From NCBI GenBank assembly GCA_963971535.1, contig OZ020590.1, forward strand, positions 151,518,034 through 151,582,033: 64,000 nt of DNA. The letters are read 5' to 3'. Positions 5,884 through 63,061 of this stretch are shown in pieces; position 1 is the first letter of the stretch; every line of letters starts with the position of its first letter. A model generated the notes under the pieces. That model saw only the letters and a list, made by a program, of their open reading frames with translations. It did no database searches and was not told where the DNA came from. This DNA comes from Notolepis coatsorum. Taxonomy: Eukaryota > Chordata > Actinopteri > Aulopiformes > Paralepididae. The position numbers were made by a program, and so were the translations under genes.

Positions 5884-6529
5884 ATCATTAATCAATGAGT
5901 ATGGGGCTGCAGGACTGCAGATATACCCTACTCTAGATCCACTCGCTTTGCACTCGTTACCAAGTGGCTCTGCAGATATACCCTACTCAGTCAAGGCTCC
6001 GGTGAAGTAGCAGAGGAACTGTTGTGATTTTTGCACAATAAATATTCAACATTCTCTTTTGAGACTCCGCCTCAGACTCTTATCATTTGGCACTAAAAGC
6101 TAAACATTGTCGCCGATATGGCTGTCCGCAACATGTCATTAATTGTGTACGCGACATGCAATTGTGCAATGACTACGTTAACGTGAGCTAGGTTAGCTAG
6201 CATAAGTTACCGGTATATGGAAAGACCATAGAAGACTGTAACGTTACTGGTGACATTGTGATTTAACTTGGAATACTCCTTTGCCAACTTGCTGTACTTT
6301 GCTTGCAGGTCTGCAGCCATTATTGCTGGATTACGAATAGCCCCAACTTTAGCCAAGGTAACGTCAAAGCTAGCTTTCGGTTAGCTGTTCACTGCTAATA
6401 ACACCAGCCACCAAGCGATCTCATCAGAGCTCCCCGTCAACAGCGCTCTGTCGGGACGATGGCATTTTAAGAAAGTATCTGCTCTGCTGTTAAAATGACA
6501 AATGGCAATTGACACTTTAATTCACGGTC

Positions 6530-29309: not shown

Positions 29310-29890
29310 ATTCACACATGTTCTTCCTGTGCCCCAGGACAGTTCAGTCAGTATGTTCTTCATGTGCCCCAGGACAGTTCAGTCAGTATGTTCTTCCTGT
29401 GCCCCAGGACAGTTCAGTCAGTATGTTCTTCCTGTGTCTCAGGACAGTTCAGTCAGTATGTTCTTCCTCGGTATGTACTGACATACTGACTGAACTGTCC
29501 TTGAGCACAGGAAGAACATACTGACTGAACTGTCCTGGAGCACAGGAAGAACATACTGACTGAACTGTCCTCAGGAAGAACATACTGACTGAACTGTCCT
29601 GGGGCACAGGAAGAACATACTGACTGAACTGTCCTGGAGCACAGGAAGAACATACTGACTGAACTGTCCTCAGGAAGAACATACTGACTGAACTGTCCTC
29701 AGGAAGAACATACTGACTGAACTGTCCTGGAGCACAGGAAGAACATACTGACTGAACTGTCCTGGGGCACAGGAAGAACATACTGACTGAACTGTCCTGG
29801 GGCACAGGAAGAACATACTGACTGAACTGTCCTGGGGCACAGGAAGAACATACTGACTGAACTGTCCTGGAGCACAGGAAGAACATAGAT
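29310..29890. repeat. 36-bp minisatellite that reverses orientation
   Basis: Units of GGACAGTTCAGTCAGTATGT plus TCTTCCTGTGCCCCA run plus-strand at about 29315-29465, then the reverse complement runs from about 29480 to 29885. The reversal point is about 29466-29490. Some units lack the middle GGGGCAC segment. It lies in the intron or upstream flank of the zinc-finger exon. Confidence 0.9.
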
Positions 29891-45180: not shown

Positions 45181-46083
45181 TGATGAAATATGACACGTAT
45201 CATGTAATTTTATAAGCGGAGACATTCTCCCATCACTACACTATATAAAGCTGGTTTTACGTCTCACTCTCAGACAAGAGGGCCACTCACAGATCAGTGA
45301 CCTGCAGGCTGACCCCTGGTACATGGTACCGTTCCTCTCACACAAACACACACACACACACACACCCTTGCTCTCAACACACACACACATCCACACCCTC
45401 AAAGCACACACACACACAAACCTACACACACACACACACACACAAACCTACACACACACACACCCTTGCTCACCCACCAGATTAGCCGATCACATAAATT
45501 CAACAGGATGCCACAAGCCAATGAAATACGACTGGGTCATTCAGTGGTCACGAAGTCCAGTCGCTATTAAATCACAGATCGTTATCTTAGACCCACACAC
45601 GCACCTACTTACACGTTAACGTGCGATACATGCACTCATGCACGCCGGACATACAGGCTGCCCAATACACAAGACACACAACGTGCACTGAGGAGAGATA
45701 CCACATACACACTGAACTATGGGATCGCTAATAAAGATCACCCCCAGAGCCAAGGGGGGACTTCACTTCACTTCACTTGACTTCACTTCGACTTTTTCTG
45801 CTTTGACTGGACTGAACAGACGGACTGGAGCGGAGGAGACATGCTGGACTGAGACAATGACTTGACTTTTATAATTTCCTTTAATATACTCAACCGGCCG
45901 GTTGTAACAATCTAGATTTCAAATTGTACCTTGCTATATTCACCTTGTATAAATACTTTGCTTATTCACTTTTATATTACATTGCTTGTTAAACTTTTTA
46001 TAATAAATACCTTCAAAAGTGTTTCATCTCTTATATCTTTAAGTATCTTTTACAACTTTCACGTTTGAGTCTAAAACGTGACA
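45181..46083 (+). repeat. Left LTR of the large LTR element
   Basis: TGATGAAATATGACACG ... AAAACGTGACA, 903 bp. TATATAA at 45243-45248, a CA-repeat block at about 45345-45472, and AATAAA at 45730-45735. Over the shared 700 bp the right LTR differs by a single substitution that I can see (near 45837 versus 63005). Confidence 0.9.
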
Positions 46084-46086
46084 ATT

Positions 46087-46103
46087 TGGCGTTCCTGGTG
46101 GGC
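46087..46103 (+). promoter_or_regulatory. Candidate primer-binding site (tRNA-Asn-like)
   Basis: TGGCGTTCCTGGTGGGC lies three bases after the LTR. It matches the 3' end complement of tRNA-Asn with one mismatch and one missing base, from memory of that tRNA. The position supports an LTR retroelement. Confidence 0.55.
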
Positions 46104-46429
46104 ATTCAATCAGACTTACCGACCTAGCTATTTACGGACGATATTGACTGGAAGACATCCACTCAGACAGAGGATCCACTTTCAAAGGTAAGCAGATAAG
46201 CCTGTTACGCAAAAGTCGAAATCTGCATAGTTAAAACAGCCGTTATGAGTGGATGCATTCTCAATTATTGTCTTGTAAATAGGTGGCTAAAAATAAAAGT
46301 AAAACCCATTGAATTGTGTTGTTGAAATGGATATTTGCAAGGTGCAATTTATAACTAGAACTTTTTTATTTAATTTTTTTTTCCCACTCACCACTCTCTC
46401 TTTTTTTTTTTTTTTTTTCCTTCTCTACA

Positions 46430-47060
46430 CTAGGCTAGAACCAACCCATTTATTTAAGTTAAGGGTAATCAGTTATTGAGTATAGACATAAAGTGGATTG
46501 CGGGTCTGAAATGCGGGAGAATTACGCCCATATTACGATTAAAGGAGCGATCGGCCTTTTCTTAGTCCTGGGATAGTGTCTCATTTGCATCAGTCGACTG
46601 CAATCCAAGTCTTCAAGATAAGCTTGGTCAAATTGCCAAGTTAGAGCAATAAGGGTTTGATTGTGTGGATGTGCTCGATGAAAAGCAGTGTGTTTTATAT
46701 TCTGTCCTTTTTTCCCCCCTCTGCTGTTGTTGTTGTTGTTTGTGTTGAATGGTAAGTCCTTCTCTGAAAGGCAATAAGTACTGTCATAGGTTAGAATGAC
46801 CCATTTTATTTAAGTTAGGGTTGTTTGTTTAAGTTAGAGCCACAGTGTACAGGGGCTTGAGTATGGCCGGAGTGGTTGAGTAGACAAACCATGGGATTGT
46901 GTAGGGCTGAAGTGCGTTGGAATTACGAATGGGTTACGGTTAAGGTTGATCGGCCTTAATTAGTCCTGTTTAGTCTCCTGATTGCGTCAGCCAGCTGCAA
47001 TCCTGGCCACGAAATAAGCTTAAGTCAATTGAAAAAGTTATGAGCTACGGTGAACCCATG
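46430..47060. repeat. Diverged tandem duplication in the LTR-element leader
   Basis: Two blocks, about 46430-46690 and 46790-47060, share the order TTTATTTAAGTTA, a GGATTGCGGGTCTGAA or GGGCTGAAGTGCG segment, GATCGGCC, AGTCCTG, CTGCAATCC and AATAAGCTT-like sequence. Identity is moderate. No coding frame is present. Its role is unknown. Confidence 0.6.
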
Positions 47061-49160
47061 AATGTGGTTAGCGTTTGATTTATGTTATACCGATGTTTCA
47101 TTTCTGTATTTTAATGTTGAATATTGTATTGTACAGGCTTCTTAAATTTTGAGTGTTGAGTAGTAGGGAATGGTGTATTATATTGAAATTAGTGTACTGG
47201 TGGTAGGGGGGCCATGTCCTGCTCTGCGAGGAGGGGTACTGGTTCAGCGGACTTTTGAACCTTCGAAGCGGCCGCGCGAGGGAGCGGGTCTGTGGAACCA
47301 GAAACGATTGAACCCTCTTCGCATTGCAGTTTCAGACTATGCATTGACGATTAGATGGATGTATCTAGTTCATTAACGATAGGCGGGTGTTATGTTATAT
47401 TATATTATTATGTTATGCTATATAAGCAGTTGTAGGAGCGGGTATTATATTACTGTATTGTATTATTATTATTTCTTTGGTCCGAGGCGCGGGGACTGTT
47501 AGTGCCGCTTGCGGTACATAGTAGATGTGTAATGTTGCAGGACCACGCACATAATTCACACAAGACTGCATTGATGAAGACGCACATGTTGGAATATAGA
47601 GCATACAATACTGGGACGCGCCGCCTATTTTATTGGGGCAACGTGCGCTCGATCGAGGCATGTTCCTGCCGGCGCCGGGGGCAACAGAGAACCACCGCGG
47701 GCTGTTGTTTTCTCCCGGACGATGTGCTCGGTTCAGCCGACATCCACGTCTTATTACCCGGCCCGGGGAAGAACGATATGCGCCGGGCGCGTTGTCAGGA
47801 TGGGGGGTGTGTGACATTGACAAGCGGTCACTGCACTAATCATAGAACGTTATGTTACTGGGATTGGGATAAGGATGCTGCGATTATTATAAATTAAGAG
47901 GACCAGAGGTGTTTTGTGTTTTTTCATTTGATAAATAGGTGGAGTTTTGGTTTGTGCTTGCAGCGCCGCCACGCTCCGATGCGAGACAAAGCATGCGTTT
48001 CGCTATCTATATAACGGCGAATTAGTGAGCGACCGTGAATCATAATTATAGGAATTTGACCCATTATTTGATTTTTAGTAGTCTTCCTGGGGTCCACCAG
48101 GAACAGTGATTATTATTGCGATTCTTTGTTTTTTAGAGATGGTACCAGACACATATTGCATGATGGTGAGATCGGGTTGAATGAAATTACGTGCGTGCAC
48201 GGTGGCGGAGGAACAAAAGTGGACAGGTGAATGAATGAGTGAATGGGAACTTTATTAGACGGATTACAGAAGGGGTACAATACGGTACGGCTCAATACGT
48301 ACAATTGTTGGGGGGATGCAGACCTGTGAAAGGCGTTTGTCTTGTTTCCATCAGGGTCTCCCACATATTTTGTATGCTTTGTAATAACAGTATGGCCTGT
48401 GTTCTTTGTGTGGTTCTGCTAAAAAAGACACAATGTAAACCTTTCTTTGTTTACTTTCAATGAAACCATAGAGCAGCCCCCAGAAGACCGATACGATTTG
48501 ATAAGGGACTTAAAAATGTCCAGCGCCTGTAATATTCGTTTTACATCATAACCATGAGATCTGTTTTGTGTCGTCACCCGAGTGAGAAGACGGGGTCTGG
48601 GCTAGAACGCTAATACATTCCACGTTTGGTCCTATGGAAGTAGATAGAAGGCGTGACTGGATATCTGAGCGATTGGTATGGATGTTTACAATCATAGTGA
48701 ATATCGTCCTTGCATTGCTCCCAAATCATGGACAATCTAGTCAATATAATCATGGACATAGTATATAGGCCTATAGCCTCTGCGGTCACATTGATTGGTT
48801 AGCGCGTTTTATTGTTGGAAGTACATCTAACGCAATGAACCCATATTCCCCACGGGGACAGTACAGGTGTTATTATTCTTGACGAAAATTGTAATTTAGA
48901 TTTGGCTATTATCCCTGTGATGGGAACTCAACGTGTATATACACTCATAAAATCGAATGGTTGTTAGTCAACATCCAGCGGACGTTGCTGTTTTGGTGGA
49001 ACTTGTTTTTAGTGGGTCTTAAGTGTCTCGGTATATATTTTCTTTGCAACTTTGATTCACTGATAAAACGATTTAATCACGACATCGCAACAGGACGCAA
49101 GCATGCGTGTATGGGGTTCAAGAATGTTGATATTTGTTCCACTTGCACGTATTCTAAGTG
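47061..49160. other. Internal region of the LTR element, no gene recognised
   Basis: Several short frames (up to 136 codons at 47413-47823, minus) have no recognisable motif and look random. A GC-rich patch lies at 47620-47800. A diverged LINE-A tip sits at 48226-48362. Confidence 0.5.
48226..48362 (-). mobile_element. Diverged LINE-A 3' tip
   Basis: GAATGAATGAGTGAATG tail, then GGGTACAATACGGTACGGCT and the family's conserved AAGGCGTTTGTCTTGTTTCC-type end. It is more diverged than other copies, and lies inside the LTR element. Confidence 0.8.
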
Positions 49161-49529
49161 ACTGCGGTCAAGTGAGCCGTCTTTTGCTTTTGCGTGGTCA
49201 AGTGAGCCGCTCTTGTTTTTCGAGTGCGCGATTAGTTCCAGGTTTACGGTAATGCATTAAAACAAGCCTGGGACGCTGTTGTAATGAACCGACGTGACTT
49301 TTGAACACAGTCTCACAAGTAGATCTTACAGAAATACTTAATATGACATTGAATGCGCATCGAATCAATAGGACGTTTAGTCTAATCAATAGGACGTTTC
49401 GTATGTGCAGTATTATTGAACATCGAATCAATAGGACGCGCAGTATATTCGATCACTAAACTAAAGCTACAGACAATTCCACAGAGGAACACTTCCGGTG
49501 AGGATTTCAAAGTAAAGGATGGCATGTGG
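49161..49529 (+). repeat. Left terminal arm of the palindromic element
   Basis: Unique-sequence arm. GGTCAAGTGAGCCG occurs at about 49166 and 49197. The AATCAATAGGACG motif occurs at about 49363, 49384 and 49426. The reverse complement of the whole arm is the right arm. Confidence 0.9.
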
Positions 49530-52500
49530 TTAAAAAAAGATTTTCCCATAAGCACCTTATGAAACTGCCATGGTTGTACTTAGTACCTCTTAGACTACGT
49601 GTACAAATTATATGAAATATTTTTACTGTGTACTTTTTGAGTAATTTGAGTTTCAAAGTCCCCAGAATCAGCATTTTCTACTAACTTTGATGTGGGATAA
49701 AAAAAGATTTTCCCATAAGCACCTTATGAAACTGCCATGGTTGTACTTAGTACCTCTTAGACTACCTGTACAAATTATATGAAATATATTTACTGTGTAC
49801 TTTTTGAGTAATTTCAGTTTCAAAGTCCCCAGAATCAGCATTTTCGACTAACTTTGATGTGGGATAAAAAAAGATTTTCCCATAAGCACCTTATGAAACT
49901 GCCATGGTTGTACTTAGTACCTCTTAGACTACTTGTACAAATTATATGAAATATTTTTACTGTGTACTTTTTGAGTAATTTCAGTTTTAAAGTCCCCAGA
50001 ATCAGCATTTTCGACTAACTTTGATGTGGGATAAAAAAAGATTTTCCCATAAGCACCTTATGAAACTGCCATGGTTGTACTTAGTACCTCTTAGACTACT
50101 TGTACAAATTATATGAAATATTTTTACTGTGTACTTTTTGAGTAATTTCAGTTTTAAAGTCCCCAGAATCAGCATTTTTGACTAACTTTGATGTGGGATA
50201 AAAAAAGATTTTCCCATAAGCACTTGATGAAACTGCCATGGTTGTACTTAGTACCTCTTAGACTACCTGTACAAATTATATGAAATATTTTTACTGTGTA
50301 CTTTTTGAGTAATTTCAGTTTCAAAGTCCCCAGAATCAGCATTTTCGACTAACTTTGATGTGGGATAAAAAAAGATTTTCCCATAAGCACCTTATGAAAC
50401 TGCCATGGTTGTACTTAGTACCTCTTAGACTACCTGTACAAATTATATGAAATATTTTTACTGTGTACTTTTTGAGTAATTTCAGTTTCAAAGTCCCCAG
50501 AATCAGCATTTTCGACTAACTTTGATGTGGGATAAAAAAAGATTTTCCCATAAGCACTTGATGAAACTGCCATGGTTGTACTTAGTACCTCTTAGACTAC
50601 CTGTACAAATTATATGAAATATTTTTACTGTGTACTTTTTGAGTAATTTCAGTTTCAAAGTCCCCAGAATCAGCATTTTCGACTAACTTTGATGTGGGAT
50701 AAAAAAAGATTTTCCCATAAGCACCTTATGAAACTGCCATGGTTGTACTTAGTACCTCTTAGACTACCTGTACAAATTATATGAAATATTTTTACTGTGT
50801 ACTTTTTGAGTAATTTCAGTTTCAAAGTCCCCAGAATCAGCATTTTCGACTAACTTTGATGTGGGATAAAAAAAGATTTTCCCATAAGCACCTTATGAAA
50901 CTGCCATGGTTGTACTTAGTACCTCTTAGACTACCTGTACAAATTATATGAAATATTTTTACTGTGTACTTTTTGAGTAATTTCAGTTTCAAAGTCCCCA
51001 GAATCAGCATTTTCGACTAACTTTGATGTGGGATAAAAAAAGATTTTCCCATAAGCACCTTATGAAACTGCCATGGTTGTATTTAGTACCTCTTAGACTA
51101 CGTGTACAAATTATATGAAATATTTTTACTGTGTACTTTTTGAGTAATTTGAGTTTCAAAGTCCCCAGAATCAGCATTTTCGACTAACTTTGATGTGGGA
51201 TAAAAAAAGATTTCCCCATAAGCACCTTATGAAACTGCCATGGTTGTACTTAGTACCTCTTAGACTACCTGTACAAATTATATGAAATATTTTTACTGTG
51301 TACTTTTTGAGTAATTTCAGTTTCAAAGTCCCCAGAATCAGCATTTTCGACTAACTTTGATGTGGGATAAAAAAAGATTTTCCCATAAGCACTTGATGAA
51401 ACTGCCATGGTTGTACTTAGTACCTCTTAGACTACCTGTACAAATTATATGAAATATTTTTACTGTGTACTTTTTGAGTAATTTCAGTTTCAAAGTTCCC
51501 AGAATCAGCATTTTCGACTAACTTTGATGTGGGATAAAAAAAGATTTTCCCATAAGCACCTTATGAAACTGCCATGGTTGTACTTAGTACCTCTTAGACT
51601 ATGTGTACAAATTATATGAAATATTTTTACTGTGTACTTTTTGAGTAATTTGAGTTTCAAAGTCCTCAGAATCAGCATTTTCGACTAACTTTGATGTTGG
51701 ATAAAAACAATTCTTCCCATAAGCACTTTATGAAACTGCCATGGTTGTACTTAGTACCTCTTAGACTACCTGTACAAATTATATGAAATATTTTTACTGT
51801 GTACTTTTTGAGTAATTTCAGTTTCAAAGTCCCCAGAATCAGCATTTTCGACTAACTTTGATGTGGGATAAAAAAAGATTTTCCCATAAGCACCTTATGA
51901 AACTGCCATGGTTGTACTTAGTACCTCTTAGACTACTTGTACAAATTATATGAAATATTTTTACTGTGTACTTTTTGAGTAATTTCAGTTTCAAAGTCCC
52001 CAGAATCAGCATTTTCGACTAACTTTGATGTGGGATAAAAAAAGATTTTCCCATAAGCACTTGATGAAACTGCCATGGTTGTACTTAGTACCTCTTAGAC
52101 TACCTGTACAAATTATATGAAATATTTTTACTGTGTACTTTTTGAGTAATTTCAGTTTCAAAGTCCCCAGAATCAGCATTTTCGACTAACTTTGATGTGG
52201 GATAAAAAAAGATTTTCCCATAAGCACCTTATGAAACTGCCATGGTTGTACTTAGTACCTCTTAGACTACTTGTACAAATTATATGAAATATTTTTACTG
52301 TGTACTTTTTGAGTAATTTCAGTTTCAAAGTCCCCAGAATCAGCATTTTCGACTAACTTTGATGTGGGATAAAAAAAGATTTTCCCATAAGCACCTTATG
52401 AAACTGCCATGGTTGTACTTAGTACCTCTTAGACTACCTGTACAAATTATATGAAATATTTTTACTGTGTACTTTTTGAGTAATTTCAGTTTCAAAGTCC

Positions 52501-53360
52501 CCAGAATCAGCATTTTCGACTAACTTTGATGTGGGATAAAAAAAGATTTTCCCATAAGCACCTTATGAAACTGCCATGGTTGTACTTAGTACCTCTTAGA
52601 CTACGTGTACAAATTATATGAAATATTTTTACTGTGTACTTTTTGAGTAATTTCAGTTTCAAAGTCCCCAGAATCAGCATTTTCGACTAACTTTGATGTG
52701 GGATAAAAAAAGATTTTCCCATAAGCACCTTATGAAACTGCCATGGTTGTACTTAGTACCTCTTAGACTACGTGTACAAATTATATGAAATATTTTTACT
52801 GTGTACTTTTTGAGTAATTTGAGTTTCAAAGTCCCCAGAATCAGCATTTTCGACTAACTTTGATGTGGGATAAAAAAAGATTTTCCCATAAGCACCTTAT
52901 GAAACTGCCATGGTTGTACTTAGTACCTCTTAGACTACCTGTACAAATTATATGAAATATTTTTACTGTGTAATTTTTGAGTAATTTGAGTTTCAAAGTC
53001 CTCAGAATCAGCATTTTCGACTAACTTTGATGTTGGATAAAAACAATTCTTCCCATAAGCACTTTATGAAACTGCCATGGTTGTACTTAGTACCTCTTAG
53101 ACTACCTGTACAAATTATATGAAATATTTTTACTGTGTACTTTTTGAGTAATTTGAGTTTCAAAGTCCCCAGAATCAGCATTTTCGACTAACTTTGATGT
53201 GGGATAAAAAAAGATTTTCCCATAAGCACCTTATGAAACTGCCATGGTTGTACTTAGTACCTCTTAGACTACCTGTACAAATTATATGAAATATTTTTAC
53301 TGTGTACTTTTTGAGTAATTTGAGTTTCAAAGTCCCCAGAATCAGCATTTTCGACTAACT
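49530..53360 (+). repeat. Left 167-bp satellite array (about 23 units)
   Basis: The monomer contains AAAGATTTTCCCATAAGCAC, CCATGGTTGTACTTAGTACC and AGTCCCCAGAATCAGC. The start-to-start distance measured at GATGTGGGAT is 167 at five successive positions (49689, 49856, 50023, 50190, 50357). A variant monomer with GATGTTGGATAAAAACAATTC occurs at 51693 and 53029. The array ends mid-monomer at CGACTAACT. Confidence 0.97.
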
Positions 53361-53372
53361 ATAAAAACAAAG

Positions 53373-56300
53373 TCAAAGTTAGTCGAAAATGCTGATTCTG
53401 AGGACTTTGAAACTCAAATTACTCAAAAAGTACACAGTAAAAATATTTCATATAATTTGTACAAGTAGTCTAAGAGGTACTAAGTACAACCATGGCAGTT
53501 TCATAAGGTGCTTATGGGAAAATCTTTTTTTATCCCACATCAAAGTTAGTCGAAAATGCTGATTCTGGGGACTTTGAAACTGAAATTACTCAAAAAGTAC
53601 ACAGTAAAAATATTTCATATAATTTGTACACGTAGTCTAAGAGGTACTAAGTACAACCATGGCAGTTTCATAAGGTGCTTATGGGAAAATCTTTTTTTAT
53701 CCCACATCAAAGTTAGTCGAAAATGCTGATTCTGGGGACTTTGAAACTGAAATTACTCAAAAAGTACACAGTAAAAATATTTCATATAATTTGTACCGGT
53801 AGTCTAAGAGGTACTAAGTACAACCATGGCAGTTTCATAAAGTGCTTATGGGAAGAATTGTTTTTATCCAACATCAAAGTTAGTCGAAAATGCTGATTCT
53901 GAGGACTTTGAAACTCAAATTACTCAAAAAGTACACCGTAAAAATATTTCATATAATTTGTACAGGTAGTCTAAGAGGTACTAAGTACAACCATGGCAGT
54001 TTCATAAGGTGCTTATGGGAAAATCTTTTTTTATCCCACATCAAAGTTAGTCGAAAATGCTGATTCTGGGGACTTTGAAACTGAAATTACTCAAAAAGTA
54101 CACAGTAAAAATATTTCATATAATTTGTACACGTAGTCTAAGAGGTACTAAGTACAACCATGGCAGTTTCATAAGGTGCTTATGGGAAAATCTTTTTTTA
54201 TCCCACATCAAAGTTAGTCAAAAATGCTGATTCTGGGGACTTTGAAACTGAAATTACTCAAAAAGTACACAGTAAAAATATTTCATATAATTTGTACAGG
54301 TAGTCTAAGAGGTACTAAGTACAACCATGGCAGTTTCATAAGGTGCTTATGGGAAAATCTTTTTTTATCCCACATCAAAGTTAGTCGAAAATGCTGATTC
54401 TGGGGACTTTGAAACTCAAATTACTCAAAAAGTACACAGTAAAAATATTTCATATAATTTGTACAAGTAGTCTAAGAGGTACTAAGTACAACCATGGCAG
54501 TTTCATAAGGTGCTTATGGGAAAATCTTTTTTTATCCCACATCAAAGTTAGTCGAAAATGCTGATTCTGGGGACTTTGAAACTGAAATTACTCAAAAAGT
54601 ACACAGTAAAAATATTTCATATAATTTGTACAAGTAGTCTAAGAGGTACTAAGTACAACCATGGCAGTTTCATAAGGTGCTTATGGGAAAATCTTTTTTT
54701 ATCCCACATCAAAGTTAGTCGAAAATGCTGATTCTGGGGACTTTGAAACTGAAATTACTCAAAAAGTACACAGTAAAAATATTTCATATAATTTGTACAG
54801 GTAGTCTAAGAGGTACTAAGTACAACCATGGCAGTTTCATAAAGTGCTTATGGGAAGAATTGTTTTTATCCAACATCAAAGTTAGTCGAAAATGCTGATT
54901 CTGAGGACTTTGAAACTCAAATTACTCAAAAAGTACACAGTAAAAATATTTCATATAATTTGTACAGGTAGTCTAAGAGGTACTAAGTACAACCATGGCA
55001 GTTTCATAAGGTGCTTATGGGAAAATCTTTTTTTATCCCACATCAAAGTTAGTCGAAAATGCTGATTCTGGGGACTTTGAAACTCAAATTACTCAAAAAG
55101 TACACAGTAAATATATTTCATATAATTTGTACACGTAGTCTAAGAGGTACTAAGTACAACCATGGCAGTTTCATAAGGTGCTTATGGGAAAATCTTTTTT
55201 TATCCCACATCAAAGTTAGTCGAAAATGCTGATTCTGGGGACTTTGAAACTGAAATTACTCAAAAAGTACACAGTAAAAATATTTCATATAATTTGTACA
55301 AGTAGTCTAAGAGGTACTAAGTACAACCATGGCAGTTTCATAAGGTGCTTATGGGAAAATCTTTTTTTATCCCACATCAAAGTTAGTCGAAAATGCTGAT
55401 TCTGGGGACTTTGAAACTGAAATTACTCAAAAAGTACACAGTAAAAATATTTCATATAATTTGTACACGTAGTCTAAGAGGTACTAAGTACAACCATGGC
55501 AGTTTCATAAGGTGCTTATGGGAAAATCTTTTTTTATCCCACATCAAAGTTAGTCGAAAATGCTGATTCTGGGGACTTTGAAACTGAAATTACTCAAAAA
55601 GTACACAGTAAAAATATTTCATATAATTTGTACAGGTAGTCTAAGAGGTACTAAGTACAACCATGGCAGTTTCATAAGGTGCTTATGGGAAAATCTTTTT
55701 TTATCCCACATCAAAGTTAGTCGAAAATGCTGATTCTGGGGACTTTGAAACTGAAATTACTCAAAAAGTACACAGTAAAAATATTTCATATAATTTGTAC
55801 AGGTAGTCTAAGAGGTACTAAGTACAACCATGGCAGTTTCATAAGGTGCTTATGGGAAAATCTTTTTTTATCTTACATCAAAGTTAGTCGAAAATGCTGA
55901 TTCTGGGGACTTTGAAACTCAAATTACTCAAAAAGTACACAGTAAAAATATTTCATATAATTTGTACACGTAGTCTAAGAGGTACTAAGTACAACCATGG
56001 CAGTTTCATAAGGTGCTTATGGGAAAATCTTTTTTTATCCCACATCAAAGTTAGTCGAAAATGCTGATTCTGGGGACTTTGAAACTGAAATTACTCAAAA
56101 AGTACACAGTAAAAATATTTCATATAATTTGTACAAGTAGTCTAAGAGGTACTAAGTACAACCATGGCAGTTTCATAAGGTGCTTATGGGAAAATCTTTT
56201 TTTATCCCACATCAAAGTTAGTCGAAAATGCTGATTCTGGGGACTTTGAAACTGAAATTACTCAAAAAGTACACAGTAAAAATATTTCATATAATTTGTA

Positions 56301-57404
56301 CAGGTAGTCTAAGAGGTACTAAGTACAACCATGGCAGTTTCATAAAGTGCTTATGGGAAGAATTGTTTTTATCCAACATCAAAGTTAGTCGAAAATGCTG
56401 ATTCTGAGGACTTTGAAACTCAAATTACTCAAAAAGTACACAGTAAAAATATTTCATATAATTTGTACAGGTAGTCTAAGAGGTACTAAGTACAACCATG
56501 GCAGTTTCATAAGGTGCTTATGGGAAAATCTTTTTTTATCCCACATCAAAGTTAGTCGAAAATGCTGATTCTGGGGACTTTGAAACTGAAATTACTCAAA
56601 AAGTACACAGTAAAAATATTTCATATAATTTGTACACGTAGTCTAAGAGGTACTAAGTACAACCATGGCAGTTTCATAAGGTGCTTATGGGAAAATCTTT
56701 TTTTATCCCACATCAAAGTTAGTCGAAAATGCTGATTCTGGGGACTTTGAAACTGAAATTACTCAAAAAGTACACAGTAAAAATATTTCATATAATTTGT
56801 ACACGTAGTCTAAGAGGTACTAAGTACAACCATGGCAGTTTCATAAGGTGCTTATGGGAAAATCTTTTTTTATCCCACATCAAAGTTAGTCGAAAATGCT
56901 GATTCTGGGGACTTTGAAACTGAAATTACTCAAAAAGTACACAGTAAAAATATTTCATATAATTTGTACAGGTAGTCTAAGAGGTACTAAGTACAACCAT
57001 GGCAGTTTCATCAAGTGCTTATGGGAAAATCTTTTTTTTATCCCACATCAAAGTTAGTCGAAAATGCTGATTCTGGGGACTTTGAAACTGAAATTACTCA
57101 AAAAGTACACAGTAAAAATATTTCATATAATTTGTACAAGTAGTCTAAGAGGTACTAAGTACAACCATGGCAGTTTCATAAGGTGCTTATGGGAAAATCT
57201 TTTTTTATCCCACATCAAAGTTAGTCGAAAATGCTGATTCTGGGGACTTTGAAACTCAAATTACTCAAAAAGTACACAGTAAAAATATTTCATATAATTT
57301 GTACAAGTAGTCTAAGGGGTACTAAGTACAACCATGGCAGTTTCATAAAGTGCTTATGGGAAAATCTTTTTTTTATCCCACATCAAAGTTAGTCGAAAAT
57401 ACTC
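53373..57404 (-). repeat. Right 167-bp satellite array, inverted (about 24 units)
   Basis: Reverse complement of the left monomers. Variant monomers start at about 53866, 54868 and 56371, which are separated by exactly 6 and 9 monomer lengths. The last unit, at about 57404-57550, is strongly diverged and links the array to the right arm. Confidence 0.97.
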
Positions 57405-57550
57405 ATTGTTCTATAAAAAGGACTTTGAAACTCAAATTACTCAAAGTACACAGTAAAAGTAGTTAATATTATTTGTGCAAGTAGTCTTGAGAAGTATTAA
57501 GTACAAACATGGCAGTGTAATAAACTACTTATGAAATAATAGAAATGAAC

Positions 57551-57912
57551 CACATGCCATCCTTTACTTTGAAATCCTCACCGGAAGTGTTCCTCTGTGG
57601 AATTGTCTGTAGCTTTTGTTTAGTGGTCGAATATACTGCGCGTCCTATTGATTCGATGTTCAATAATACTGCACATACGAAACGTCCTATTGATTAGACT
57701 AAACGTCCTATTGATTCGATGCGCATTCAATGTCATATTAAGTATTTCTGTAAGATCTACTTGCGAGACTGTGTTCAAAAGTCACGTCGGTTCATTACAA
57801 CAGCCTCCCAGGGTTGTTTGAATGCATTACCGTAAACCTGGAACTAATCGCGCACTCGAAAAACAAGAGCGGCTCACTTGACCACGCAAAAGCAAAAGAC
57901 GGCTCACTTGAC
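57551..57912 (-). repeat. Right terminal arm of the palindromic element
   Basis: Reverse complement of 49161-49529 with a handful of substitutions (for example CTCGCAAG for CTCACAAG type changes). It ends GACCGCAGT before TCTAAACTGG. Confidence 0.9.
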
Positions 57913-57925
57913 CGCAGTTCTAAAC

Positions 57926-59038
57926 TGGCTCTGTCGTCAGATGTCTGGATTCTAAATGCGACTGTTGCCTTATGATGCCTCGTGAGGTGGAAGGACAGGA
58001 AGGGTTTGCCGTATAGGATATGTATATGAAAGTTGTATTTTAGTCATAAGTCTTCTGAGGACGGAAGTAATTACGGCAGTATGGTTTCTTTGTTGACAGA
58101 TGTGAAGCTCGTCTGATTGCTGTCACTGTGGCGAGCTGTAGAAGGTCCTATAGTCATATGCGCGCGCGTGTGTGTTTACCGTTTGAATAATTAGGCATAA
58201 TTCTAATGAGAAATTAATCCTTGTATATTACTTATTCATTAATTAATTTATATTAATGAATGTATTGTATGTTCGGTCTGTCTCTGATGCTGAAGGCAGG
58301 TCTGTCTTCTAAGAGCGGTTTTGATCTCCATATAAGACTGGATATGTTTATAGCAAAAAAAAACAAAAAAAAAAACACACAGATCGGAGTTGCAAACAAC
58401 TTTTAAAAAAGCATAGAGGATAATGGGAACACATATTAGGCCTGTATGCATTATGCACCCATACATATTATATACGTTAGGGAGTATTTTTAAAGTGAAT
58501 CTACTATACAGCGGAGGTTTTGAGGCAGTTTTTTCCAAGGGGTTAATGCTCTACAACTAAAAGATCCCCTTAAGAGCGTTGGTTTTAGGACCTGGCAATT
58601 CGAGCTGCCCACTACTGGGACCTTGAGTGTAATACTCATGCACAGTTTTGCACAATCGGTTCATGTATAGGGAACAGGGGTTTTACTGCTCAGGACCAAT
58701 TTAAGCAGCAAGGCCAAGAGAGGCGGGCATGCATATACGGCTCACATTGGACCTTGGTCAGCGGCCCATAGTACCAACGGTGCTGCCCAGTTCGGGGCAG
58801 CCTGGAGTTTACAGAGGTCACCGCTTCTATCTGACATGAGTACCTCTCCTGGGAATACCGATTGCTCTTCCCATTTTTAAGAAAAATAAAGACGATAATT
58901 AAAATACTGAGATTAAGACAGAGTGCTGTCCAGCTTCACTCCAAAGAGATTAGTACTTTCGACTTGTTGAACTGCAGAATTACACGAGTTTAAATGAATC
59001 TTTGGATACTTGCAGAGTCCTGGTTTCACCCCCCCCCC

Positions 59039-59086
<48 letters not shown>

Positions 59087-62000
59087 TCTCTCTCTCTCCC
59101 TTCTCAAACTCAGCACAGAGGACACAGCTGTCCCGGGTGGGAAGAGGAAGCTGAGACATTTTTAGCTAGCTGCTCCTGTTTTCTGGGAGAAGTTAAGAGT
59201 GGCTATGGAGATTCCCCTGGGCGTTCCGATGGCTCCTGGTAGCAGTGCCGAAGGGACTAATCGACGCCTGCACCCGTTGGCCGTACACCCCACGGCCCCA
59301 CTGGGGGCTATAGGCCTTACGTCTAGGTCAGGCATTATAGCTCAGCTACAGTCAATGGGCGCGGAGAGATTTGTGTCAATATCAATCCGTGACCTAGCTT
59401 TCTTTAAAGAAGGAATGTTGCGAAATAGGGCAGGAGAAGGAAGGGTGATTTCGTTTCCCCCCCTCAATCCCCGTTAATCTATCTTGTGTTCCCTCTCTCT
59501 TAGGCCTAAGGGGGAGTGGGTGTAGACTGGATTTGGCTGAGATTGAGGGTAGAAAGGGAGGGAGCCGCCACTATTTCGTATTTGCCTAAATACGATACTA
59601 AGTGCATGTCTGTCTGTGGGTGCATGGTTCTGCGTTTATGATTCCAACTAAAACATTAACTAATTTTGTTTGTCATGGTTTATTGGGGGGTGCATGGGGT
59701 ACATGTGTGTCCTGGAGTATGGGTGTGATGCGTATGCTTGGTTCGATTACTGCATGTTTCTATGATTATGGTGGGAGACTGGATGGTGTTGCGTGTTTCT
59801 TTTTCTCCCCTTTTCCTGCTCTCCTTTAGGGAGGCCGTGACCCATCAATCATGCTGGTGTATACCCCTGGTCTGTAAAATGCTGTATAACTCAGTAGAAT
59901 ACTGTATACTCATTAGAATATATATACTCGGTGGAATACTGTATACTCATTAGAATGTATATACTCATTGGAATACTGTATGCTCGGTAGACTACTGTAT
60001 GCTCAATAGGTTAGACCAGCGTTGTGGACGCTGTTATTGTCTTGTCTTTTATAAATGTTTTTTTTGTCCCACGATTTGTGTCAGGATAGATCAATCAATC
60101 AATCTACAAGCCCTGACGCACACGCTGATAATCTCGCTAGCACACGCCCTTACGCTGGCGCGCACGATCACGACACACACACACATACATACACACACGT
60201 CACACACGTTGTCTGTACGCACACACAACCTAATACGAACACAGGCACACACACACACACGCACTCTATACACACACGTACACTGGCACATGAACACACA
60301 GACTCTGATACACACCGTTTCGCTCTCTCTCCCTATTTGGTCCTTATTTTACGTTATTTTAATTTTTTGGGTGTGGATTTTGTATTTTTTCTTTTGACTC
60401 TTTTTGGGTTTTGAGTCTGGTTCATTTTAAGTTTGCCGTTTTATTGTAATCTCTGTCTGGATGTCGTTTTAATGTGTTGGATTGATTGGTAATGTTGGCG
60501 GGGAGGGCCGCTGTTCTATTCTTCTCTCTCTCTCTCTCTCTGTGACTCTGGGACGGGCAGCGGACTTGATCCCACACGGACCCAATACTCAGCCATGGAT
60601 ATCCTCAGTCAAGGGGGGACGGGCCATGGTGGGACGGGCCATGGTGACTGTGGTGACAGCTGGACCACACTGACAGCATGGAGGAGAGGAGGTGGAGTAT
60701 GAGACATTGGGACTCTAAGTGGTGACGTTACATCCCCCGACGGCTCTGTGGTCGGGGTCCTGCTGGGCCTGGCGACCTGGGGTCATGGGCTGGCACGGAG
60801 CAGTGGTACAGAGGACCCCCCGCTGTGAAGCCATGGAGCGGTTTGGGCGAATACGGGTCTGTCTTTATCGGATATGTTTGTGTCGCTGACCATAGTGCTC
60901 TTATCATCCTGAAGGGTGGTTGCTGCTGCACTTACCGAGGACAAGGACTCGGCCGTTGGGATGGACGCTCACTGAGGTTGACAGAGGACGTGTGCCGCTG
61001 CTACATCTCTCTGTATCCTCCTGGACAGGCGTCTGTATCCTCCTAGAAAGTCATCTCTCAGTATTCTACCAAGAGCCATGGCAGTCCCCACCACGGTGCT
61101 ATTTCTCCTCCCCTCTTCTACTCCTCCTCCCCCGTTTATCCCCCACTGACTGTGCAGGATGTGGGGCTGTCCGTGACTGTGCAGGAAGTGGAGCTGTCCA
61201 ATGCCACGTATTACCAGGTCGTGATATCCAGATATGGGAGGAAGCTGTGACTGGTCTCTCCTCACCGGATGACACCGGGGGGAGAAGCCTCATATTATAG
61301 GACTCTGTCTCCTACTCTCTCATCTCTCTGTCCCTCTCTTGACCGCACCAAATTCTCTCTCTCCTCTGGGCCCCCACATGTAGGTGTCACACTCCACAAG
61401 TCCAACAAGGTGTCACACTCCACAAGTCCAGCAAGGTGTCACACTCCACAAGTCCAACAAGGTGTCACACTCCGCAAGCCCAACAAGGTTACGTATAGGT
61501 CTGATGTATTAGTGTTGGTCATCCCATACGCGCCGGAGAAGGAGCCTCATGTCATAGGCCTCTAGCCTTTTCTATCTCCTATTCTACTCTCTCTCTCATC
61601 TCTCTATACCGCACCAATTCATCTCTCTCCTCTGGGCCCCCCATTGTATGTGGTCACACTCCACAAGGTTGCGTACAAGTCTGATATGTAGAGCTGTGAT
61701 CCGTCGCGGACGTCGGCCGGCGGTGAAGTTTCGTTTTTCTTTTGTATTTTTCTGTTTTTTAGGGGGCCTTTTGGCGCCCTACGCCCTGGTTTGGGTTAAT
61801 ACACTGTTATGTTTTGTTATACACTGTTATGTTTTGTTATACACTGTTATGTTTTATTATGCACTGTTTTGATATCCACTATTATGTTTTATTATACTCT
61901 GTTGTGTTTTGTTATACACTGTTGTGTTATTATTATGCACTGTTATGTTTTATTGTGCACTGTTATTGTACGCTGTTATGTTATGTTTGACAGACTCACA

Positions 62001-62340
62001 GTGAGTCGGATGTGCTGTGAGCTGCGCCAAGGGCCGTTACCATAATAGCGGGACTATGGGACGATGTGTGCCTTTTATCCTCCAGTTATGTCATGGTATT
62101 TAAGCATGTTATTATTCATGTGTTCTTTATTGGCCGTACATTCTGGGCCGTTTGTCTCGGGAGGTTTTTTGGCCACATGCAGGACTCTGTTTGATGAAAA
62201 CAGTAGAGAGGTTGATGATTGTGCCATTTCTCTATTGACTCTTGTGGGTCGGCCGGTTGGGTGTATTTTTTATTATGTGGTTGTTTGTTGATAATTTTGC
62301 TTGAGGTCCCCCTTCTATTTCATTTTCTCCCTACCTGTGG
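57926..62340. other. Internal region of the LTR element, 3' part, no gene recognised
   Basis: The region holds simple repeats: CT tract 59040-59098, AC-rich tract 60170-60300, a 26-bp minisatellite (GTGTCACACTCCACAAGTCC) at 61384-61475 and a 20-bp one (TACACTGTTATGTTTTGTTA) at about 61800-61990. AATAAA lies at about 58886. No retroviral enzyme or envelope motif is seen in any frame. Confidence 0.55.
59199..59477 (+). CDS. Hypothetical 92-codon frame
   Basis: The frame reads MAMEIPLGVPMAPGSSAEGT ... GIIAQLQSMGAERFVSISIR ... GEGRVISFPPLNPR. It is not one of the low-complexity frames nearby and has an ordinary amino-acid mix. No family is recognised, there is no signal peptide or membrane segment, and no evidence of translation beyond the open frame. 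If the LTR element once carried accessory genes, this could be a remnant. It may equally be chance. Confidence 0.2.
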   Translation: MAMEIPLGVPMAPGSSAEGTNRRLHPLAVHPTAPLGAIGLTSRSGIIAQLQSMGAERFVSISIRDLAFFKEGMLRNRAGEGRVISFPPLNPR

Positions 62341-62357
62341 GTAGGGAGAGGGGGGAC
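62341..62357 (+). promoter_or_regulatory. Polypurine tract before the right LTR
   Basis: GTAGGGAGAGGGGGGAC ends directly at the LTR start TGATGAAATA. It is purine-rich as expected for plus-strand priming. Confidence 0.8.
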
Positions 62358-63061
62358 TGATGAAATATGACACGTATCATGTAATTTTATAAGCGGAGAC
62401 ATTCTCCCATCACTACACTATATAAAGCTGGTTTTACGTCTCACTCTCAGACAAGAGGGCCACTCACAGATCAGTGACCTGCAGGCTGACCCCTGGTACA
62501 TGGTACCGTTCCTCTCACACAAACACACACACACACACACACCCTTGCTCTCAACACACACACACATCCACACCCTCAAAGCACACACACACACAAACCT
62601 ACACACACACACACACACACAAACCTACACACACACACACCCTTGCTCACCCACCAGATTAGCCGATCACATAAATTCAACAGGATGCCACAAGCCAATG
62701 AAATACGACTGGGTCATTCAGTGGTCACGAAGTCCAGTCGCTATTAAATCACAGATCGTTATCTTAGACCCACACACGCACCTACTTACACGTTAACGTG
62801 CGATACATGCACTCATGCACGCCGGACATACAGGCTGCCCAATACACAAGACACACAACGTGCACTGAGGAGAGATACCACATACACACTGAACTATGGG
62901 ATCGCTAATAAAGATCACCCCCAGAGCCAAGGGGGGACTTCACTTCACTTCACTTGACTTCACTTCGACTTTTTCTGCTTTGACTGGACTGAACAGACGG
63001 ACTGGAACGGAGGAGACATGCTGGACTGAGACAATGACTTGACTTTTATAATTTCCTTTAA
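62358..63061 (+). repeat. Right LTR of the large LTR element, truncated by insertion
   Basis: Almost identical to 45181-45884. In the left LTR the sequence continues from TTTCCTTTAA into TATACTCAACC; here the same TTAA is followed by foreign DNA starting GGTGTCATGC, so an element with TTAA target choice has inserted. Confidence 0.9.

Follow-up and report, generated by a model that had tools for sequence, protein, structure and literature searches.

The closest known systems to the element described here are two families of Atlantic cod, gadMor-hAT-1784 and gadMor-hAT-8043, and the Tetris element of Drosophila virilis. gadMor-hAT-1784 is a non-coding palindrome of two inverted blocks of about 600 bp made of 167-169-bp units, and was classed as a hAT-derived miniature inverted-repeat transposable element (MITE); gadMor-hAT-8043 is an array of units of about 167 bp in one direction, cod gadMor-hAT elements have mean insertion lengths of 0.9-5.8 kb, and elements of such type are located at inversion breakpoints (PMC12368964). 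Tetris is a non-autonomous foldback element with an outer flanking domain, a variable number of tandem repeats of about 220 bp in each terminal inverted repeat (TIR), and a target-site duplication (TSD) of 8-10 bp; its TIRs of up to 1,735 bp surround a middle domain, three copies are structurally complete, and it gives rise to satellite arrays, longer free satellite-like arrays also being present (PMC4079207). Here, I analysed a stretch of 64,000 nucleotides (the window) of the fish Notolepis coatsorum (GenBank assembly GCA_963971535.1, contig OZ020590.1, positions 151,518,034 to 151,582,033). It was found that positions 49161-57918 of the window are a palindromic element of 8,758 bp, in which two inverted arrays of a 167-bp satellite lie between inverted arms. 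The element is a mobile, apparently non-autonomous DNA transposon. It is likely that it represents a recently active cut-and-paste family in which break repair rebuilds the satellite palindrome between conserved ends.

In its layout, the present family resembles gadMor-hAT-1784 in its non-coding inverted blocks of units of about 167 bp, and the agreement in unit length is striking. It differs from the described cod elements in its size (2.8-31 kb), in the 23 or more monomers on either side of the centre in the window copy, in its unique outer arms of 363 bp, in the 8-bp TSDs read on 32 pairs of ends, and in centres that differ from copy to copy. With Tetris it shares the layout, from an outer domain to tandem repeats, and the TSD length; unlike Tetris as described, it has no middle domain, more than 100 copies, and no free arrays in the part of the satellite places that was listed. 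Galileo of Drosophila belongs to the P superfamily and has long TIRs with internal tandem repeats, a likeness to the present family, and a P-type (THAP) transposase, which is a Galileo feature. The Xenopus elements Xstir and miDNA4 also have tandem repeats inside a non-autonomous DNA element, but are not known to form palindromic kilobase arrays. They are described as satellites carried on MITEs (PMC9659126). Tm1 of root-knot nematodes, assigned to Mutator/Foldback, has similar foldback-type composite TIRs of variable length and MITE-like members, but differs in its mostly 9-bp TSD and internal repeats of about 14 bp, against 8 bp and 167 bp here, and some of its members have a putative transposase (PMC3169594). 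No publication on the present family was found in the literature searched, whose coverage leaves out most subscription journals.

By Tandem Repeats Finder, the two arrays occupy 49524-53360 (23.0 copies of 167 bp, 97%) and 53373-57523 (24.8 copies of 167 bp, 97%) of the window, and their consensus units run opposite ways. In a self-BLAST of the window, a single inverted match was obtained, 49161-53360 against 57918-53711 (4,216 columns, 97.0%). Thus, the palindrome of inverted 167-bp arrays proposed in an earlier note, which was made from the bare sequence, was borne out, as were its inverted arms of about 360 bp (363 bp each, with mismatches at 6 of 363 bases), its spacer of about 12 bp, and the lack of a transposase frame; the right end moves from 57925 to 57918. 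The monomer counts of about 23 and about 24 also hold (about 48 in total), but the right array has, beyond its 24 regular monomers, one diverged edge monomer that is lacking on the left. No offset stood out when left monomers were compared against right ones. No open frame of at least 90 amino acids is listed within 49161-57918, and there was no transposase in the sequence read. It was also ruled out that the monomer is a duplicated piece of the arm, since 100 of 300 shuffles reached the one local alignment score, 19, and 270 of 300 the other, 16.

The 3.42-Gb assembly, in which the window lies on contig C21, was then searched. The outermost 27 bp of the arm (the tip) occurs exactly at 212 places (101 + 111), and a 30-mer of the monomer at 5,910 places (2,828 + 3,082, with the strands balanced). 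Reversed tip and monomer control gave 0 each, and chance is therefore excluded. Arms restricted to the window would have spoken against a mobile element in the earlier note; this is not so. I paired the tips among 100 listed places of the 212, and 76 of them make 38 inward-facing pairs spanning 2.8-30.9 kb (median 10.6 kb); other arm-flanked copies with differing monomer numbers thus exist. In a search with the 369-bp arm, the best 40 of 498 candidates were scored, and 35 of the 40, including the window copy, tie for the top score at 100%; being the best candidates, these are no measure of the family mean. All of the 20 stretches around arm matches carry both arm and array (L023/L024 and L025/L026 are the two ends of one element each), and the arrays face each other wherever the opposite side fell within the retrieved stretch. 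Inside L012, L017, and L025 there is sequence read as a long interspersed nuclear element (LINE), its frames resembling LINE reverse transcriptase. In their character, the LINEs and retroelements appear teleost-like. The tip and a 27-mer of the monomer are absent from viral_contigs.

Among the 100 listed tips, 24 are unpaired, and 20 of these were retrieved. Fourteen loci show the arm with its edge monomer and with monomers (L067 is cut within these), while the other six are interrupted: the arms of L049 and L052 contain an insertion of another repeat, L050, L054, and L060 pass into other sequence, and L056 is a 172-bp hairpin derivative of the tip sequence alone, without satellite. As a side observation, apparently the same short repeat has inserted behind GGACGC in two different arms, at arm position ~280 in L049/L068 and at arm position ~127 in L074; it begins with TGTAGC and holds TAACCTTAACC repeats. 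From ~1550, L068 has one monomer, one inverted monomer, and then a GGGAGTGTGGGG-type minisatellite.

The duplications of 8 bp lie directly outside ACTGCGG. Both ends were read in 32 pairs (30 tabulated pairs, L028, and L074/L075; L056, with 5/8, was left out). The TSD is perfect in 20 of the 32 and agrees at 5 or more of the 8 positions in 30, while 870 mismatched left-right pairings gave 27 cases at 5-6/8 and none at 7-8. The tabulated pairs comprise 20 at 8/8, four at 7, three at 6, two at 5 (the window included), and one at 3 (L010); L028 has 6/8 by eye, its left tip carrying one change, and L074/L075 has 3/8. Such flanking duplications had been suggested as a check in the earlier note, and the check came out in favour of mobility. 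It is because of the inward-facing tip pairs and the TSDs, set against this control, that the element is regarded as a mobile transposon. Inverted ends with a fixed-length TSD at many loci are found, as in a non-autonomous TIR DNA transposon, and so are the features of foldback (FB)-type elements: long inverted repeats built from tandem units, a length that varies among copies, and a small or absent middle. The target sites are without strong preference, with position 3 slightly enriched in C/T and position 6 in A/G (71 ends). The TSDs of the window, L009, L012, C6:190541439, and C6:11808874 are imperfect (5-6/8) beside near-identical arms.

Symmetric structures are a known assembly artefact, and the palindrome could in principle be a fold-back of the assembly. 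This is practically excluded by the six differences between the 363-bp arms, by the unlike left and right flanks, and by the recurrence of one 8-mer at the two outer ends in 20 of the 32 pairs. Identical 8-mers stand 24-26 kb apart at C1:146395866, L025/26, and L020, which supports the assembly across the palindromes.

The arms are of two types. Among 25 ends compared, most of which had been picked for type A, 21 are of type A, three of type B, of which one has an additional change, and one is another variant; the same edge monomer stands at 24 of the 25, the left end of the window being the exception. Genome-wide, exact 33-mers count 138 for type A and 46 for type B. The 38 pairs consist of 11 A-A, 17 A-B, one B with neither type, seven A with neither, and two with neither at both ends; one B-B pair lies on C23.

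Is the satellite found without the transposon ends? The 212 tips correspond to about 106 element-equivalents, whose mean length of 12.4 kb gives about 70 monomers each by my arithmetic, and the elements alone can therefore account for all 5,910 monomer places. The window itself holds 44 of them. The first 100 of the 5,910 places (C1 up to 59.1 Mb) are all within three arm- or tip-bounded elements. Among these 100, all on C1 and in assembled regions only, no large free arrays were seen, and the long arrays without mobile ends that mark a classical satellite do not appear. The suggestion of the earlier note that a transposon carries and spreads the satellite is supported by this result, and the satellite would spread as cargo of the transposon ends. 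A free satellite family into which a pair of transposons happened to insert would fit the absence of any visible derivation of the monomer from the arm; it is very unlikely, since the number of monomer places does not exceed what the elements would hold and the listed places on C1 are all inside elements.

How do the interiors change? The centres could be read in 12 loci and the window; elsewhere they are out of reach or occupied by LINE sequence. All 13 differ in the phase where the left and right arrays stop. The arrays overlap by 1-15 bp at six of the 13 junctions, are separated by a filler of 1-39 bp at six, and meet bluntly at one. Microhomology with short filler is the usual signature of end joining. 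The earlier note had also considered a foldback element grown by unequal exchange. Multi-monomer tandem (segmental) duplications are present inside the arrays, and the array lengths vary, as such growth predicts. Unequal exchange between direct repeats changes the array length but keeps the turn-round point, and the new centres are left unexplained; thus, unequal exchange alone is insufficient and, as the whole explanation, improbable.

Next, the kinship of the arrays was assessed by the longest exact left-right match in 15 elements (arrays or parts in hand) against 210 between-element pairings. The longest own matches belong to L025/26 (4,215 bp) and L023/24 (2,806 bp), which are both A-A elements with mirror copies. 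In the remaining 13 elements the match is 316-710 bp, above the between-element values (Mann-Whitney p = 2e-4, although the pairings are not independent), and none of 5,000 re-pairings reached the observed mean. In six of the 15 (L010, L019, L021, L022, L023/24, and L025/26) no other pairing equals the own match, and in L027 one does; in the remaining eight the own match is reached by 3 to 18 of 28 other pairings, L012 being the worst. The window, with 500 bp, is above 24 of 28. As judged by these matches, arrays that belong to one element tend to be more alike than arrays of different elements.

These results indicate that the interior is in rapid turnover while the ends are copied faithfully. 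A break repaired inside the element, probably after excision, would explain how the interior is rebuilt. A transposase supplied in trans would bind the arm repeats and cut at ACTGCGG. A break inside the element, most likely the excision gap or else a broken palindrome tip, would be repaired by copying satellite from either end, out of register. Joining of the two growing ends with little or no homology would then reset the centre and alter the array length. Occasionally, one half may give way to a mirror image of the other, by which an A-B element becomes A-A with both ends filled from one arm. In mariner MITEs, internal deletions with microhomology have been ascribed to abortive gap repair (PMC5490172). 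Because of this precedent, abortive gap repair of the satellite arrays, proceeding from both ends, is deemed most likely.

The main rival keeps the same mobile element but makes the centre reset independent of transposition: hairpins or cruciforms formed by the unstable palindrome at replication may be cut and end-joined. Long palindromes are fragile, and the microhomology or short filler at the junctions would be expected here too. The left and right phases are no more than 31 bp apart in nine of the 13 centres (p = 0.02, with the 31-bp limit set post hoc), as trimming of the tip would give. Palindrome breakage alone leaves the replacement of a whole half with its arm, seen in the two A-A elements with exact mirror matches of 2.8 and 4.2 kb, without explanation. 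The two routes are indistinguishable from static sequence; I regard breakage alone as a considerable possibility, although a rather doubtful one.

Several observations weigh against the reading of a cut-and-paste transposon with interiors rebuilt by repair. The link between transposition and centre renewal is inferential, since hairpin cleavage at replication would leave similar junctions. The window TSD (TCTAAGTG / TCTAAACT) is imperfect at 5/8 although the arms are young. Two of the 32 pairs reach 3/8 only; L010 is located in a simple repeat and fits better with a one-base shift, and L074/L075 are perhaps separate insertions. The left and right arrays of L012 are no closer than the control median, and a third A-A element, L022, has a longest mirror match of 486 bp only. 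No transposase for the family was found in searches that covered few transposase families, and no autonomous element either. In a hAT search, 150 of 10,698 candidates were scored, and the 10 loci retrieved are without the arm; a Zisupton/KDZ transposase search of the genome gave no match, but neither did its control anywhere.

Candidates for an autonomous member were rejected. In L012, L017, and L025, the frames of the interior outside the satellite were read as LINE fragments, the 20 unpaired tips retrieved are ordinary ends or interrupted loci, and no transposase was recognised by eye in L068-L071. The family shares the 8-bp TSD with hAT elements. hAT elements have an nTnnnnAn target preference and a YARNG-type tip. 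Here, T at position 2 and A at position 7 each reach 25% (71 ends, symmetrised), and the tip is ACTGC. The family was therefore not filed under hAT. Apart from this, four hAT matches of equal score have open frames of 660 amino acids (C1:198863266, C7:87077703, C7:126178309, and C46:65976222) and may possibly represent a recently active hAT family.

In the window, the palindrome is nested inside an apparent long terminal repeat (LTR) retroelement without long frames (Table 1). Its LTRs have 704 bp in common with one difference, the right one ending early at 63061, and the host is therefore young. With the near-identical top-scoring arms, this position of the window copy marks the palindromic family as young and recently active. 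Might the palindrome be a built-in part of the retroelement, copied along with it? Its place between near-identical LTRs would allow this. The 500-bp flanks of the window copy are unmatched in the flanks of the retrieved loci (a single 29-bp chance match is to an unrelated hAT locus) and other copies are flanked by 8-bp duplications of their own, so that the idea can be virtually dismissed. A second, smaller pair of inverted arrays lies elsewhere in the window (29318-29468 and 29481-29887), with 35-bp units in opposite orientation and a 12-bp gap.

Table 1. Features of the palindromic element and its host in the window (window coordinates).
Feature	Position	Strand	Remarks
Enclosing element, apparent LTR retroelement	45181..63061	.	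Host of the insertion, outside the palindromic element proper
Left TSD, TCTAAGTG	49153..49160	.	5/8 positions same as the right one
Arm, type A, 363 bp	49161..49523	+	Outermost 27 bp = exact tip with 212 genome places
Repeats in type A arm, GGTCAAGTGAGCCG x2	49166, 49196
Repeats in type A arm, CATCGAATCAATAGGACG-like x3	49358, 49379, 49421
Left array	49524..53360	+	23 monomers of 167 bp, the last of 164 bp; edge monomer missing
Centre	53361..53372	.	12-bp filler joining the arrays; private to the window copy among the 13 centres read
Right array	53373..57383	-	24 monomers of 167 bp
Diverged edge monomer	57384..57555	-	~80% identical to the consensus monomer
Arm, type B, 363 bp	57556..57918	-	Differs from type A at six linked positions: 99, 106, 114, 155, 293, 302
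Right TSD, TCTAAACT	57919..57926	.

The movement of satellites between chromosomes and the origin and survival of long palindromes are old questions. With about 100 young copies marked by their ends, private centres in 13 of 13, and two arm types, the growth of arrays, mirror conversion, and the re-joining of centres are directly readable in this family, which is a natural experiment in satellite spread and palindrome formation. Inversions have a ready substrate in large inverted arrays at many loci, which extend the cod case (PMC12368964). More tentatively, and with somewhat less confidence than doubt, the interior may be rebuilt at every move instead of being inherited, only the ends replicating faithfully and the satellite palindrome being regrown by break-induced copying and end joining. 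If so, the satellite would arise as a by-product of excision repair and travel over long range as its passenger, and this genome would make and tolerate palindromes as long as 31 kb at more than 100 sites.

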